The notes beneath the pieces are model-generated. The model had not been told where the DNA came from, did no database searches, and saw only the letters and a program-made list of their open reading frames with translations. From a virus: a stretch of DNA of 21,109 nucleotides. Shown here piece after piece: positions 3,170 to 21,109 of this stretch. Both the position numbers and the translations under genes were made by a program. Position 1 is the stretch's first letter; every line of letters begins with the position of its first letter. The stretch lies in the IMG/VR virus record IMGVR_UViG_3300024432_000077, positions 1 to 21,109 of that record; one strand, 5' to 3'.

Positions 3170-3345
3170 TGAAATTGAAAAAAATAATCGATCAATTCTC
3201 TGAAGATAATTTGAAAGAAGAGAAAAAATCTGGCACATTTAAGTGCTCGATATGTGGAAGCAAAGTTCTCAAGAACACGGGATACTGTGTTAAATGTAAG
3301 AAGAAAGTATCATCTGGTGTAAAAGGCGAGGGAGATGATCAATAG
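3169..3345 (+). CDS. Small zinc-ribbon protein, 58 aa
   Basis: The product has a four-cysteine zinc-ribbon pattern, C26-x2-C29 and C40-x2-C43 (CSICG...CVKC), within a Lys-rich 58-aa chain. I chose ATG 3169 over the in-frame ATG at 3151 because GGAGGAGAGG (3153-3162) ends 6 bases before it and the preceding stop overlaps it as TAATG. The ribbon suggests nucleic-acid or protein binding, but no partner can be named. It sits among small genes inserted in the neck module and overlaps the following gene by 11 bases. Confidence 0.7.
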   Translation: MKLKKIIDQFSEDNLKEEKKSGTFKCSICGSKVLKNTGYCVKCKKKVSSGVKGEGDDQ

Positions 3346-3625
3346 TCCAGAAGATTTAAGAGGCAAGTGGTTTAGTAATGTTGCAGGAAAACCACAAAAT
3401 TATTATTTTGTACTTTTAGTTAAACTTTTAACGAGTAGTCATTTTATTACTGAATATATTAGAGTCGAATCAAAGAGAACAATGCTGGGTCAAAGTACCA
3501 TAATACCATGGGACAATTTCCGCATGTGGGGAGAACCTGTAAAAGATCTTATCACTCTGACTAGAGTAAGACGCAGAGCTATAAAAGGAATGTTCGCGAA
3601 ACAAGAAATAATAGAAGATGCTTAA
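3335..3625 (+). CDS. Hypothetical protein, first of a tandem paralogous pair (96 aa)
   Basis: Function not recognised. The 96-aa protein shares an obvious pattern with the next gene: an N-terminal P-x-x-L-x-G-x-WFSNV motif, a YYFVL strand about ten residues later, a central W-x-x-(F/L)-(R/K)-MWG-(E/D)-P motif, and a C-terminal LTxxRxxAIKG. That argues for a tandem duplication followed by divergence. The strand-rich pattern with conserved Trp and Gly suggests a small beta-barrel (SH3-like) fold, which is inference. ATG 3335 follows GGCGAGGGAG. It ends 8 bases inside the second copy. Confidence 0.7.
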   Translation: MINSPEDLRGKWFSNVAGKPQNYYFVLLVKLLTSSHFITEYIRVESKRTMLGQSTIIPWDNFRMWGEPVKDLITLTRVRRRAIKGMFAKQEIIEDA

Positions 3626-3893
3626 TGACCCAAAAGAATTAATAGGAAATTGGTTTAGTAATGTTACTGGACGACATGATTTTTACTTCGTATTAGAAGT
3701 TAATAAGATAAAGACTCCTACGATATTGCCGGAGTATGGCGAGTTTGTTACAAGACATGTCAAAATTCAACCAAAGAAGGTTAAAGCAGTAAGAGTTGTT
3801 TGGAAAGACTTAAAAATGTGGGGAGATCCCATAACAAATTTAAGCACTCTTACTAAATTAAGGTACAAAGCTATAAAAGGAATAATAAAATAA
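3618..3893 (+). CDS. Hypothetical protein, second of a tandem paralogous pair (91 aa)
   Basis: A 91-aa paralogue of the preceding gene. It keeps the WFSNV-T-G motif, the FYFVLEV strand, the VVWKDLKMWGDP motif and the closing LTKLRYKAIKG. The middle loop (about residues 31-47) differs in length and sequence between the copies, so they may have distinct contacts. Conservation of the Trp/Gly framework suggests both are functional. No family could be named. Its stop overlaps the start of the next gene as TAATG, so the two are likely translated in step. Confidence 0.7.
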   Translation: MLNDPKELIGNWFSNVTGRHDFYFVLEVNKIKTPTILPEYGEFVTRHVKIQPKKVKAVRVVWKDLKMWGDPITNLSTLTKLRYKAIKGIIK

Positions 3894-14758: not shown

Positions 14759-15904
14759 ATGGATAGAGAACTAAACGTGCTCGAAAAAAGTCTGATGGAA
14801 AATGTCAATAAGAAATTCGGCGAAGATAACCCGATGATTCAACTCAGAGAAGATTCAGAATATGGTAAACCTCGAGGATGGGTTGATACGGGTATATATG
14901 CACTTAATTGGATAATATCTGGCGATATAAATGGCGGTTGGCCTGTAAGCAGGATTTCAGAGCTTGACGGAGACCCTGGAACTGGTAAATCTCTTCTCTG
15001 CGAAATGGCTATGAGAGATCCAACTATTGGTCTCATCATTTATTTTGATACTGAAGCTGCGATGAACACAGATTTTTTAAAGTTCCTCGGAGTTGATATA
15101 AATAAAGTTCTATATCAACCAATAGATACAGTTGAACAACTTCAAGAAATATGTCGAGAAGTCCTCACTACAATCATTACAAATAAACAAACAAAAAAGA
15201 AAGTCTTAATGGTTATCGATTCAATAGCTCTTGCATCTACTGAAAAAGAAATGGATCCAGAAGGTGGTTCAGATATGGGATTCAAAGCAAGAAAGCTTAG
15301 AGAATTTTTCAGAGTATATGCAAGAAAGATTGAAAAGTATAACATTGCTTTGTTAGTGACTAACCACTACACACAAAAAATTGGTGTTATATTTGGTTCT
15401 AAAAAGACGACTACTGGTGGGACGGCACTTCCTTATGCTTCTAGTGTTCGGATCGATTTGAAAATTGAAGAGACTAAAATAGACGAGAAACTCGAGGCTA
15501 TCGGAGCTAGCTCAGTTACACTCAGAGCAACAACAATGAAAAATAGATGCTTCTCTCCTCGAAGACGAATATTCTTTGTATTAGATTTTGAGAAAGGCGT
15601 TCACAGATATAGTGGACTTCTTAAAGTTCTCGAAAATCTTGGATGTACTAAAAAATCGGGTGGCTGGTATTCTATTCCTGCCTGGGACTCAAGTAAGAAA
15701 TTCTTTGCTAAAGATTTCCCTGATCTTGTTGAGAAAAATAAACTACAAGATTTAGTCCAAAAACTTTTAACTGAAGCAGTTCATAGAGACGACGATGAAA
15801 CTCTTGAAATGAATGCTGAAATGGAAACAAAAGCAATTGAAGAAGCATCTGAGAAGGAAGAAGTTGTTGCAGAAAAGAAAAAGTCTAAGGATAAACTGAA
15901 ATAG
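14759..15904 (+). CDS. uvsX: UvsX, RecA-like recombinase
   Basis: The 381-aa RecA-family strand-exchange protein forms filaments on single-stranded DNA in recombination-dependent replication and repair. Features are an N-terminal helix, the WVDTGIYALNWIISG entry to the core (41-55), Walker A GDPGTGKS (71-78), the glutamate of YFDTEA (E99), Walker B VLMVIDS (149-155), and a flexible DNA-binding loop near MDPEGGSDMGFKARKL. The later segment VTNHYTQK...KTTTGGTALPYASSVR is typical of UvsX/RecA L2 and the following strand. The tail beyond 340 is Glu/Lys-rich, as expected for an acidic regulatory tail. T4 UvsX is 391 aa. The SD is AGAGGAG just before the ATG. Confidence 0.92.
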   Translation: MDRELNVLEKSLMENVNKKFGEDNPMIQLREDSEYGKPRGWVDTGIYALNWIISGDINGGWPVSRISELDGDPGTGKSLLCEMAMRDPTIGLIIYFDTEAAMNTDFLKFLGVDINKVLYQPIDTVEQLQEICREVLTTIITNKQTKKKVLMVIDSIALASTEKEMDPEGGSDMGFKARKLREFFRVYARKIEKYNIALLVTNHYTQKIGVIFGSKKTTTGGTALPYASSVRIDLKIEETKIDEKLEAIGASSVTLRATTMKNRCFSPRRRIFFVLDFEKGVHRYSGLLKVLENLGCTKKSGGWYSIPAWDSSKKFFAKDFPDLVEKNKLQDLVQKLLTEAVHRDDDETLEMNAEMETKAIEEASEKEEVVAEKKKSKDKLK

Positions 15905-17125: not shown

Positions 17126-17394
17126 AATTCAGAAATTTTACTTATAAGAAAAAAGGATTTTACAAACCTAAAGATTATCTCGTTCTTATCACTAGAGAAG
17201 ATCAAACTCATTTTGGTGGAATCGATCTTGCAAAGCTTGACAACAAAGAGATTGAAGTTCTCGTAGATATACAAAAAGAATATGAGACTAATATGAAACC
17301 CCTCATAAAGAAAGCTTACCGTCTATATATTAAAGAGAATGTTATTGATGAAAACGATACTGGTGATCCGCAACAGCTACTTGATTTTAAGTAG
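17122..17394 (+). CDS. Hypothetical protein upstream of uvsW, 90 aa
   Basis: The 90-aa product opens MKFRNFTYKKKGFYKPKDYL and continues VLITREDQTHFGGIDLAKLD, then a helix with KKAYRLYIKENVID. The K-x-x-x-YLVL...GIDL-x-KL pattern looks conserved and familiar from large-phage small proteins, but I cannot name it. AAGGAGA precedes the ATG, and the start overlaps the previous stop as ATGA. Its last 47 bases overlap the N-terminal region of the uvsW-like gene. Confidence 0.65.
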   Translation: MKFRNFTYKKKGFYKPKDYLVLITREDQTHFGGIDLAKLDNKEIEVLVDIQKEYETNMKPLIKKAYRLYIKENVIDENDTGDPQQLLDFK

Positions 17395-18742
17395 TGAAGA
17401 TGAAGATTTGCTGGAAAACATATACGATACTCTTAGTTTTAAAGATGCATCTAAAGCATACACTTACGGTGGACGTTTCGATCCTGACAGGATAGTCGTT
17501 GTAAGATTTTCTAAGTTCGTAGAAGAACTTGATTTACCAAGCTTGAAAGTTCCTATCGGATTTCTCGATTTTATACAGAGTGTTCTCACAGAATATCGAT
17601 ATTCTGTAGTAGATGATAGAAAATCAATTCAAGAAATAGAAGTCGATCAGATTGAAAATCTTGATGGAATTGAATTAATGGACCATCAGCTTGGCGCGAT
17701 ATGCAAAGCTTTATCCTATAGACGTGGGATCATCAAATCACCAACCGGAAGTGGTAAAACAGAAATCTTTCTAGCAATCTTGAATATGCTTGAGAAGCCT
17801 TCGCTAGTCTTATTCAATAGGCAACAACTTACTAGGCAAACTGTTGAGAGAGCTAGAAAGCGTGGTCTCGATGTGGGTATAGTTCAAGGTGCTAATATTG
17901 AAGAAAAAGATGTCACGATGGCTACTATTCAAAGTGTTCATAAAATAGAAAGTATTAAGAGGTATAAAAACCTAATTCTAGACGAAGTTCACAACGTAGC
18001 CTCTAAACAATATCAAAAAATACTTAAACTAAAACACTGGGAGAGAGTATACGGTTTCTCTGCGACTCCCGTGAATCCAAAAAAGATGGACTTGAAGTCT
18101 GCAAAGATTATTGCGAATATAGGTTCTGTGATTTGTGATGTAGGTGCAAAAGATTTAATCGACAAAGGAATAATCGCAAAGCCAAAGATTTTTATGATGC
18201 CCATTGATATGCCTGACAATATAGATGATTTCAGCTACAGAGAAGCCGAGATGGCCGGGATCATATATAACAAATATAGAAACAGACTTATAGCTAGCTT
18301 AGCTGAAAAACACAGAGGCAAGGGTGTTCTCATATTAAATAAATACGTAAATCAAGGCAAAGAGATTCAAAAATTATTACCTGATGCTCCGTTTATATGG
18401 CACGAAATTCCAGTAAAAGAACGACTCGAAGTCGTTGAGAAATTCGACAGAGGTAACACGGAAATACTGATAGCCTCTAGAATATTAGATGAAGGCATAG
18501 ATATTAAAAACTTCAAAGTATTGATTATAGCTAGTGCGGGTCTTAGCTTTATCAAAACTATTCAGCGCCTTGGTAGAGGCTTAAGGGTCACAGATGATAA
18601 GAAGAATATTTTAGTCTATGATTTTATGGACAATACTAATTATAAACTATTAAAACACTCAAAGACTCGCATAAGGACATACAAGATGTTTGGATATGAC
18701 GACATAATAAAAGTCAAGGAGATAGATAATGCCATTGTATGA
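17348..18742 (+). CDS. uvsW: UvsW, superfamily 2 DNA/RNA helicase
   Basis: This is a helicase that remodels branched DNA (R-loops, stalled forks) in T4-type recombination. Counting from ATG 17348 (464 aa), motifs are Q/I region KSPTGSGKT (131-138), motif II DEVH (212-215), motif III SATP (238-241), and in the second domain LIASRILDEGIDIKN (motif V) and IQRLGRGLR (motif VI). The N-terminal 80 residues have the Tyr/Gly/Arg fork-contact pattern (YTYGGRFDPDRIVVVRFSKF). T4 UvsW is 503 aa. The start is uncertain: ATG 17339 is in frame but its purine run touches the ATG, whereas AAAGAGA lies about 10 bases before 17348. The C-terminal 14 bases overlap the FmdB-like gene. Confidence 0.9.
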   Translation: MKTILVIRNSYLILSSEDEDLLENIYDTLSFKDASKAYTYGGRFDPDRIVVVRFSKFVEELDLPSLKVPIGFLDFIQSVLTEYRYSVVDDRKSIQEIEVDQIENLDGIELMDHQLGAICKALSYRRGIIKSPTGSGKTEIFLAILNMLEKPSLVLFNRQQLTRQTVERARKRGLDVGIVQGANIEEKDVTMATIQSVHKIESIKRYKNLILDEVHNVASKQYQKILKLKHWERVYGFSATPVNPKKMDLKSAKIIANIGSVICDVGAKDLIDKGIIAKPKIFMMPIDMPDNIDDFSYREAEMAGIIYNKYRNRLIASLAEKHRGKGVLILNKYVNQGKEIQKLLPDAPFIWHEIPVKERLEVVEKFDRGNTEILIASRILDEGIDIKNFKVLIIASAGLSFIKTIQRLGRGLRVTDDKKNILVYDFMDNTNYKLLKHSKTRIRTYKMFGYDDIIKVKEIDNAIV

Positions 18743-18992
18743 TTACGAGTGTCCTAAATGTGGGTGCAAGAAAGAAGAGTTGATAAAACCAGGAGAAGAG
18801 AAAAATTTCTATTGCAAAAAATGCAAAGTAAAAATGAATAGAAAATTCCCAAATTCTATGTCATTCAAGATGACGGATAATTTTATTATGGGTAGAGATA
18901 AGCCACCAGAAAAAGAAACAGCTGAAAAGTTAGAAGACTTCAAAGAACATCCTGAAAAAGATCCATACAGAAAATTCAGGGAGGCTAAATAA
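18729..18992 (+). CDS. FmdB-like zinc-ribbon protein, 87 aa
   Basis: The product begins MPLYDYECPKCGCKKEELI, the hallmark N-terminus of the FmdB family, with C8/C11 and a second pair C29/C32 forming a zinc ribbon. A basic stretch is followed by a Lys/Glu-rich helical tail. FmdB-type proteins are small putative regulators or nucleic-acid-associated factors; the biochemical role is poorly known. It starts inside the end of uvsW and ends as TAATG with the next gene. Confidence 0.75.
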   Translation: MPLYDYECPKCGCKKEELIKPGEEKNFYCKKCKVKMNRKFPNSMSFKMTDNFIMGRDKPPEKETAEKLEDFKEHPEKDPYRKFREAK

Positions 18993-19189
18993 TGGTAACA
19001 GTTAATGGTAAAAAATATAAACTAAGTAAGGCTAAAGAAAACGAACTCAAAAAGTGGCTAGAAGATAATGCCGAAGTTGCGGCTCAAATTTCTGAAGATC
19101 TTGTAATAGATATAGAAGAAACTGCAGGAGTTGAGATTGAGTATAACGAACTTAACCAAGAAGACGATCTAGAGGATGATAAAAAATGA
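18992..19189 (+). CDS. Small acidic hypothetical protein, 65 aa
   Basis: The 65-aa product begins MVTVNGKKYKLSKAKENELK and ends with a strongly acidic run (NELNQEDDLEDDKK). The N-terminal third is basic and the rest acidic. GGGAGG precedes the start. No family recognised. It overlaps the lipoprotein gene by 4 bases (ATGA) and lies in the same operon as the tubulin-like gene. Confidence 0.6.
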   Translation: MVTVNGKKYKLSKAKENELKKWLEDNAEVAAQISEDLVIDIEETAGVEIEYNELNQEDDLEDDKK

Positions 19190-19434
19190 AAAAGATTATT
19201 TTATTAATTGTAATGATTATGGCAATATCTCTTGTTGGATGTAAAAACGGAGATACAACAATAGAACATCTTGAGAATAAAATCACTCTCATAGTATATG
19301 GATACGATTGGGATAAATTAAAAAACACTGTAGAAGAAACACGAGAAAATTATCCAGAATACGAAATAACAAAATATCTTACTTATTCTTTTCTTAACAG
19401 GATTACCATCGTATTCGAAAAGAAAGGAGAATAA
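19186..19434 (+). CDS. Predicted lipoprotein, 82 aa
   Basis: The N-terminus MKKIILLIVMIMAISLVGC is a type II signal peptide: two lysines, a 15-residue hydrophobic core and a lipobox L-V-G-C with C19 as the lipidated residue. The mature part (about 64 aa) is hydrophilic and mixed alpha/beta (TLIVYGYDWDKLKNTVEET...). It should be exported and anchored to a membrane. Phage lipoproteins act in superinfection exclusion, in lysis (Rz1-like) or in the envelope of the infected cell; Rz1-type would be Pro-rich and overlapping an Rz gene, which is not seen. It ends 2 bases before the tubulin-like gene, whose SD AAAGGAGA lies within it. Confidence 0.75.
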   Translation: MKKIILLIVMIMAISLVGCKNGDTTIEHLENKITLIVYGYDWDKLKNTVEETRENYPEYEITKYLTYSFLNRITIVFEKKGE

Positions 19435-19436
19435 AA

Positions 19437-20516
19437 ATGGCAAGAAGAAGAATGATTTTAGGAGCCGGCCAATGCGGTATGAAATTGGCCCATGACTATT
19501 ACATAAAATTTTCCGATAAGAGTAATGAGTTGGTTGCTCTTAGCACAAGTTCAGAAGACTCAATCAACATACCAAGAATGAGTATCTTACAAGTAACTAC
19601 AGAAGGTAGTGGAAAGAAATTTACCACTGGGAGTAATATTTGGCAAAAAAATATTAATAAATTGTCAAGAGAATTCGGAGACGTAGAAGATACTGACATT
19701 ATTTATTTTACTTCTTCAGGTGGTGGAAGTGGAAGCAGCTCTGTCAGATATGTTGCTGATATCTTGTTAAAGTCAAGTAAAGGTAATCGGATTTTTCTCA
19801 TAATGGTATTGCCGTTTAGATACGAGACACTTCCATTTAAGCCAAACACATTGCGGTCAATCAGTGCTCTCCAAGATGGCGGATATACAGAGAGAATGAG
19901 TATCCTCCTGTTCGACAACGATAGACTTTCAAAACAATATTTTGATGTTGAGAAAATTGATTACGATACTGTAATAAATACTACCAACTTAGAAAAGATT
20001 AATGATCATATAGTAAATTCGACAAGTCTCATACTAGATTTAATTAATGTGTATCATAATCCGTCCAAGTTTTCTCCTTTTACAATTGACGAGATAGAGC
20101 ACGAATCAGTTATTTTTTCAAATGGATTCATTGGAATTGATAGCAAGATTTTTAACGGTAAATCTATTTCAGTCAAATTTGATTACGGAAAAATCTCTAG
20201 TGCAAAGAATGTCATCATAGCAAAATCAGTCCGACTCGGCGAAAGTGATTATACTCTCAAGAACAATGCTGGTAATTTTCTCGAGAAAGTTAAGAGAATT
20301 TCTCGCAGAGCTAAGAATGCTAGAATTATGTATGGTATTGTAAGAACAGACAAGATTGATGATGGGACATATATAATTATAGCAAACAACCTTGACGTCG
20401 ATAAATATATCACGAAAGTGAAAGAAAAAGTCGAAGTTAATGTTGAAGGGTATTTGACTAAAGAGACTAGAGAAAAATTACTAACTGGTAAAGAAAGAAA
20501 TCTGTTTGATATTTAG
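19437..20516 (+). CDS. Tubulin/FtsZ-family GTPase
   Basis: The 359-aa protein shows tubulin/FtsZ landmarks in order: a glycine loop GAGQCGMK (9-16); a T3-like Gly/Ser loop EGSGKKFTTGSN (56-67); the signature loop GGGSGSSS (95-102), where FtsZ has GGGTGTG; the VLPF strand end (124-127); FDND (159-162), like the nucleotide-contacting Asn in FtsZ; a T7-like acidic segment FTIDEIEHES (215-224) with candidate catalytic D218/E221; and a C-terminal domain of FtsZ layout (KNVIIAKSV..., ARIMYGIVRTDK, TYIIIANNLD). Phage tubulins (PhuZ, TubZ-type) form filaments that position phage DNA. This one is divergent. The C-terminal tail KLLTGKERNLFDI is basic/hydrophobic, unlike the acidic tails that bridge PhuZ filaments. 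AAAGGAGA precedes the ATG. Confidence 0.85.
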   Translation: MARRRMILGAGQCGMKLAHDYYIKFSDKSNELVALSTSSEDSINIPRMSILQVTTEGSGKKFTTGSNIWQKNINKLSREFGDVEDTDIIYFTSSGGGSGSSSVRYVADILLKSSKGNRIFLIMVLPFRYETLPFKPNTLRSISALQDGGYTERMSILLFDNDRLSKQYFDVEKIDYDTVINTTNLEKINDHIVNSTSLILDLINVYHNPSKFSPFTIDEIEHESVIFSNGFIGIDSKIFNGKSISVKFDYGKISSAKNVIIAKSVRLGESDYTLKNNAGNFLEKVKRISRRAKNARIMYGIVRTDKIDDGTYIIIANNLDVDKYITKVKEKVEVNVEGYLTKETREKLLTGKERNLFDI

Positions 20517-20518
20517 CA

Positions 20519-20902
20519 ATGAAAATTTTTAAAGAAGAAATAGAAAGATTGCATGAGACGCTAGAGCGCACACAATTGGCGATAGATCAAACTGAAGAGA
20601 AAAATCTCAAAATCAATAAACTTTTGCCAGAAGAAAGAATAGCAATTTATATCTATGAAAAACTTCATGGTGTTACTGTTCAAGGTGAATTCTTTGGCAC
20701 AGTTGGCTGTGTTTGGTTAAATGATATATTAGAGTTTGCCAATAAACGCGCTATTAGAGAATTAAAAGGAAAATCAATATGGGAAGAAGATGTGTATAAA
20801 ACCTATATGGCAGTTGCTAAAAAATTATTGAATGAAATAGGTTTTGAAAAATCTGAAAAAACTGTCGACATAATTTTCACCGCAGTAAGAAGTATGTTAT
20901 GA
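20519..20902 (+). CDS. Hypothetical charged protein next to the tubulin-like gene, 127 aa
   Basis: Begins 2 bases after the tubulin-like stop, with no clear SD, so translation is probably coupled. The N-terminal 40 residues are Glu/Lys-rich and likely a coiled coil (KEEIERLHETLERTQLAID). The rest is a helical domain (RIAIYIYEKLHG..., YKTYMAVAKKLLNEIG). No family is recognised. Immediate adjacency makes a filament-binding or adaptor role attractive but unproven. Its stop (TGA 20900-20902) is followed in the +1 frame by an open, protein-like stretch, so the true C-terminus may be longer. Confidence 0.7.
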   Translation: MKIFKEEIERLHETLERTQLAIDQTEEKNLKINKLLPEERIAIYIYEKLHGVTVQGEFFGTVGCVWLNDILEFANKRAIRELKGKSIWEEDVYKTYMAVAKKLLNEIGFEKSEKTVDIIFTAVRSML

Positions 20903-20999
20903 AGTCCAACTTGATCGATCTTTTAATTTAACACAATTAAATGATTGGGAAGTCTTGTGCTGGGATCCAATTCCACCAGAAAGATTAAAAATAATATGA
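20889..20999 (+). other. Orphan reading frame continuing the 127-aa gene in +1 frame
   Basis: In the frame +1 to the preceding gene, codons from 20889 (just after TAA 20886) are open to TGA 20997-20999 and read EVCYEVQLDRSFNLTQLNDW followed by EVLCWDPIPPERLKII. The composition is protein-like, and the stop overlaps the next ATG as ATGA, the pattern of real gene ends here. There is no ATG or GTG start; the only TTG is late (20955). It may be the true C-terminus of the 20519 gene, reached by a +1 shift or hidden by an indel. Confidence 0.4.
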
Positions 21000-21109
21000 G
21001 AATAAGATACTCGTTCAAAGCTATAGAGAATTTTCTAAAAAGTTTAAATATCGAGTACAGAATTACTCCAGACGGAGAGATAGCAATAAACTCTCCTTTT
21101 ATGAGTGAT
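20996..21109 (+). CDS. Hypothetical protein, 5' part only (cut by window end)
   Basis: Starts at ATG 20996 overlapping the preceding TGA (ATGA) and runs 38 codons to the window edge: MRIRYSFKAIENFLKSLNIE then YRITPDGEIAINSPFMSD. It looks like a small protein with an N-terminal helix and a beta strand; too little is visible to assign a function. It is in operon with the upstream genes. Confidence 0.55.
   Translation, partial: MRIRYSFKAIENFLKSLNIEYRITPDGEIAINSPFMSD

Follow-up and report, generated by a model that had tools for sequence, protein, structure and literature searches.

The virus fragment analyzed here (21 kb from IMG/VR; the whole stretch of 21,109 nucleotides is called the window) encodes a protein of 359 amino acids whose membership in the tubulin/FtsZ superfamily, and in a clade of its own, is well supported. 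The predicted tubulin is not a one-off: it is one of 17 members of a clade, hereafter family T, in uncultured phages that we assign by their genes to the T4 superfamily. We propose, with a probability of roughly 55%, that the protein assembles into a GTP-driven filament by which replicating phage DNA is positioned, separated, or clustered in the absence of a phage nucleus, and that a conserved C-terminal tip serves as its dock. Well-studied phage tubulins come from nucleus-forming jumbo phages and act on the phage nucleus. A separate T4-superfamily clade in whose records no shell protein was found would demonstrate direct use of tubulin filaments by phages on DNA or the replication machinery, and would make it possible to study the function of a phage tubulin independently of the nucleus.

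A divergent tubulin with conserved GTP-site loops

The open reading frame lies exactly where the initial annotation had placed it, and profile, fold, and phylogeny all support its interpretation as a divergent tubulin/FtsZ-family GTPase. The Pfam model PF00091 (Tubulin) matches the protein significantly, at 40.7 bits against a curated cut-off of 33 (E 4.1e-10), and was matched by all 9 family T members scanned (best E 2.9e-15). Matches of the window protein alone to the PHROG PhuZ family (0.011) and to NCBIfam were weak or due to chance and were rejected. The gene and its conserved elements, which include every motif named at the outset (GAGQCGMK, GSGKKFTTG, GGGSGSSS, and TIDEIE of T7), are as follows:

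19437-20516, + strand: tubulin/FtsZ-superfamily GTPase (family T), 359 aa; PF00091, AlphaFold2, Foldseek, 17-member clade
19461-19484, + strand: T1 or glycine loop GAGQCGMK, aa 9-16; G9, G11, and G14 invariant (n = 17)
19605-19631, + strand: T3 loop GSGKKFTTG, aa 57-65; gapless alignment with FtsZ GAGANPEVG
19719-19742, + strand: T4 signature loop GGGSGSSS, aa 95-102; GGGSGSS (95-101) invariant (n = 17)
19911-19928, + strand: T6-like FDNDRL, aa 159-164; N161 invariant (n = 17), compare FtsZ PNDKL
20082-20099, + strand: T7 region TIDEIE, aa 216-221; D218 invariant, position 221 always E or D (n = 17)
20490-20513, + strand: conserved C-terminal tip KERNLFDI; a [DN][IV]-COOH end after a variable linker in 17/17

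The GTP-site loops, GGGSGSS, N161, D218, and the acidic residue at 221 are thus common to all 17 members, and the alignment adds G57 and G65 of the T3 loop to the invariant positions. The serine at the third signature position, initially noted in place of threonine, is likewise found in the entire family, and Thr replaces the Asn of T7. These two substitutions are what would speak for a GTPase switch that does not polymerize, but we regard such a switch as very unlikely because conservation of the other loops extends to members that are only about 30% identical, and because PhuZ members polymerize yet also deviate from the GGGTGTG consensus. The invariant GTP-site and T7 residues occupy both of the surfaces that longitudinal assembly requires.

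At the C terminus, an acidic tail is absent as first described, but that description had overlooked the conserved extreme tip, for which the family consensus is [LFY][DN][IV]. We set aside a probability of 4e-38 calculated for chance sharing of this tip because it ignores common descent. In the family T pair with the lowest dS, dN/dS is around 0.1, which points to purifying selection on the gene.

Predicted fold and structural matches

An AlphaFold2 model built from the 17 sequences (pLDDT 84.7, pTM 0.85) has the expected two-domain, tubulin-like fold composed of a GTPase and an activation domain, with low confidence confined to the linker and tip near the C terminus. Foldseek aligned it over the full length to TubZ (TM 0.74 for 2xka and 0.72 for 4ei7), CetZ (0.65-0.66), and FtsZ (0.58-0.64), and a profile search of the PDB returned TubZ/RepX (1.5e-13), CetZ (7e-13), M. 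jannaschii FtsZ (2e-9), and PhuZ (3.7e-7). Of the two outcomes that the initial annotation would have taken as refutation, lack of a significant tubulin/FtsZ profile match and a fold other than the two-domain tubulin type, neither occurred. Among viral models in BFVD, the best fold match was a metagenomic phage “FtsZ” (A0A6J5RW92, TM 0.74), while PhuZ-type models reached a TM of around 0.6.

Phages that block host division exist, and the match to the FtsZ fold would suit an antagonist or decoy that joins or caps host FtsZ filaments. We consider this role improbable, given that conservation covers the nucleotide face as well as the T7 face, as self-assembly needs, that identity to FtsZ is only around 15-17%, and that family T has its own conserved tip and a gene located in a replication module.

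A clade of tubulins in uncultured phages

Besides the window protein, family T comprises 16 further full-length relatives from IMG/VR with 71% to about 30% identity, and all 17 members come from uncultured phages. In a tree of these 17 sequences together with 8 PhuZ proteins, E. coli FtsZ, and 4 other phage tubulins (TubZ was not included), family T forms one clade with support of 100/100 and three subgroups, apart from the 8 PhuZ sequences that form a separate clade, also at 100/100. IMG/VR also contains more distant phage tubulins that belong to other types (L018, L022 with its duplicate L023, L024, and L025); in L018, L022, and L024, UvsW and/or primase adjoins or lies near the tubulin gene.

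Searches elsewhere returned no relatives at the sensitivities applied: there was no match in 50,697 GenBank phages (tblastn, four tubulin queries) or in plasmids (tblastn, one tubulin query), none in GTDB genomes in two pattern-limited scans, and no tubulin match in T4, RM378, a cyanophage, an SPO1-like phage, a Slopekvirus, or a 595 kb phage. Tubulins of jumbo and huge phages are already known (PMC7824862, PMC7162821, PMC10299810, PMC3678025, PMC8314001). No paper on a tubulin of T4-superfamily phages was apparent from titles and the openings of abstracts in the open-access journal literature searched.

Location in a replication and recombination module

The tubulin gene sits in a replication/recombination module, usually near UvsW, primase, and a DnaB-type helicase, or near a DnaE polymerase. 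In the window, its surroundings are:

14759-15904, + strand: UvsX recombinase (phrog_97, 1.2e-60)
17339-18742, + strand: UvsW-type helicase, upstream neighbor (phrog_16 DNA helicase, 3e-77)
18729-18992, + strand: small Zn-ribbon protein (PF09723, 7.4e-7, below cut-off); cluster c4, a conserved neighbor in the close clade
18992-19189, + strand: small acidic protein; similar small open reading frame at the same place in relatives
19186-19434, + strand: predicted lipoprotein with LVGC lipobox at the 5' junction of the tubulin gene; at this position in the window only
20519-20902, + strand: 127-aa protein separating tubulin from primase; its cluster, c50, is represented in L004 and L050 too
20996-21109, + strand: first part of the primase gene, truncated at the window end (translation MRIRYSFKAIENFLK...); its relative in L001 matches phrog_47 DNA primase (1.8e-24)

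The initial annotation had named UvsW and a lipoprotein gene as neighbors; both are there in the window, but the lipoprotein gene was not seen at that position in relatives. Across the family, primase follows downstream within about 10 genes in 10 of 17 members, UvsW lies upstream in 5/17, and a gene of the DnaE cluster, identified as DnaE in L026, lies upstream in 9/17. Members of the close clade have the tubulin gene flanked by UvsW and small genes on one side and by primase and helicase on the other, it adjoins or lies near primase in L010 and L012, and it is found downstream of the DnaE-cluster gene in the third subgroup as well as in L011 and L014. No primase was present within the flank examined in L006, L008, L009, and L016.

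TubZ is used for partition by Bacillus plasmids and a Clostridium phage, according to literature cited in passages of PMC3678025 and PMC7824862, and profile searches make it the closest solved relative of the window protein, while fold comparison places it among the closest. A similar system in family T would imply an episomal phage whose filament segregates it at host division via a centromere-bound adaptor. This scenario seems unlikely to us: positions 18600-21109 contain no repeat array, no TubR-like or HTH protein was recognized by sequence among the neighbors, and the carriers have T4-type genomes equipped with head, tail, and replication modules. No adaptor was found for the family T tubulin, there were no centromere-like repeats and no excess of promoters or terminators near its gene, and no convincing repeats flank it.

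Several other features of these regions were recorded. An intein-like insertion interrupts the downstream DnaB-type helicase in L001 (12677-15396), L004 (13229-14959), L005, and L012/L020, and its site seems to be shared by all of them. The insertion contains an HNH-type open reading frame in L001 and a related one in L012; L003 lacks the insertion. Further HNH-type insertions are found in the portal gene of L001's record (L043, 2740-6591) and in the DnaE polymerase of L026 (4372-6720). A WGR-PARP protein (L001, 16340-17554) and a nicotinate phosphoribosyltransferase (L001, 17739-18836) are encoded near the tubulin module, and we dismissed them as unrelated neighbors.

Carrier phages and the search for a nucleus shell

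The description of the window as T4-like is supported by its genes for a head-tail adaptor, sheath, tube, baseplate hub, gp46/47-like proteins, UvsX, and UvsW, while the record of the closest relative, L001, adds terminase, portal, protease, and gp23. T4 gp23 was found in the three longest carriers (179, 189, and 201 kb) and three others, with the best two matches at around 30% to a 595 kb uncultured phage and Rhodothermus phage RM378. From this gene content we conclude that the carriers belong to the T4 superfamily. The window also contains two tandem paralogous small genes of cluster c48 (3335-3893).

The best-understood phage tubulins center a nucleus, and some carriers are near-jumbo in size (201 kb), so that a PhuZ-like spindle could in principle serve a nucleus built of a shell protein too divergent for recognition. 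However, the shell family phrog_4795 (ChmA) is present in 8/8 PhuZ phages and in 0 of 13 records searched here (10 of family T and 3 with other phage tubulins), and a phiKZ-type RNA polymerase beta was not found in the records searched either, both absences being limited by metagenomic records that may be incomplete. As family T also forms a separate clade without acidic tail, we view a hidden nucleus as highly improbable.

Relatives without the tubulin gene

A primase scan revealed L048 and L049 (identical over the compared stretch) as well as L050, which have the same module (identities of 69-81% for UvsX, 60-70% for UvsW, and 58-69% for primase) with no tubulin gene upstream of primase, nor is one found elsewhere in their records of 144, 85, and 90 kb. 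L048 is sister to the tubulin-bearing L003 (100/99) in the tree built from UvsX, primase, and UvsW; the UvsW tree alone places it just outside L003, the window, and L001, yet inside the carriers. This nesting indicates that tubulin presence changed at least twice, unless the gene lies on a missing part of the tubulin-less genomes. With the same proviso, the gene looks dispensable to the module, since two close relatives, one of them nested among carriers, keep the gene order but lack tubulin there. Close relatives with and without tubulin at the same site provide a ready natural comparison.

Proposed function

Polymerization and the role of the protein are inferred. The family T tubulin would bind GTP and form head-to-tail polymers in which each subunit's T7 completes the GTPase site of the following one. 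The gene neighborhood suggests a role in DNA organization, and the filament may position, separate, or cluster replicating phage genomes in the host cell, while the flexible conserved tip ending in [LFY][DN][IV] may dock it to cargo or an adaptor, perhaps a replisome protein. Since family T is distinct from the tubulin of nucleus-forming phages, a cytoskeleton may help organize phage DNA without a phage nucleus.

A more specific variant, which we consider less likely and put forward only tentatively, is a replisome-linked cytoskeleton in which the tip would bind a phage replication protein and filaments would gather or space replication forks, again without a nucleus. Such a function is not described for phage tubulins in the literature consulted for this comparison.

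Comparison with known tubulins

Family T shares the superfamily fold and loops with CetZ and FtsZ (profile matches of 7e-13 to CetZ and 2e-9 to M. jannaschii FtsZ), but identity is around 15-18%, the C-terminal peptide is another one (the tip [LFY][DN][IV] replaces the FtsZ-type peptide that binds FtsA and ZipA), and there is no division-gene context. TubZ of Bacillus plasmids and a Clostridium phage is the best solved profile match (1.5e-13) with the highest TM (0.72-0.74); it differs in that no TubR or tubC was recognized near the family T gene, which has the signature Ser and sits in a phage replication module. The top viral fold match, A0A6J5RW92 (TM 0.74), was compared by fold alone and is longer, with 452 aa versus 359 aa.

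Like PhuZ of the Chimalliviridae (phiKZ, 201phi2-1, RAY), the family T protein is a phage-encoded, two-domain tubulin with a conserved GTP site, which is reflected in the profile match of 3.7e-7 and an hhalign match of 95% over the GTPase domain. Yet a long branch sets family T apart as its own 100/100 clade, its [DN][IV] tip stands in place of the acidic, knuckle-forming tails of PhuZ, and its genomes are those of T4-superfamily phages, whose searched records yielded neither a shell protein nor a phiKZ-type RNA polymerase beta. Judging from these sequence comparisons, the family T tubulin is not PhuZ; as a filament acting on the phage DNA, it would serve the cellular function that PhuZ or TubZ has elsewhere, but with neither a phage nucleus nor a recognizable TubR/tubC pair.
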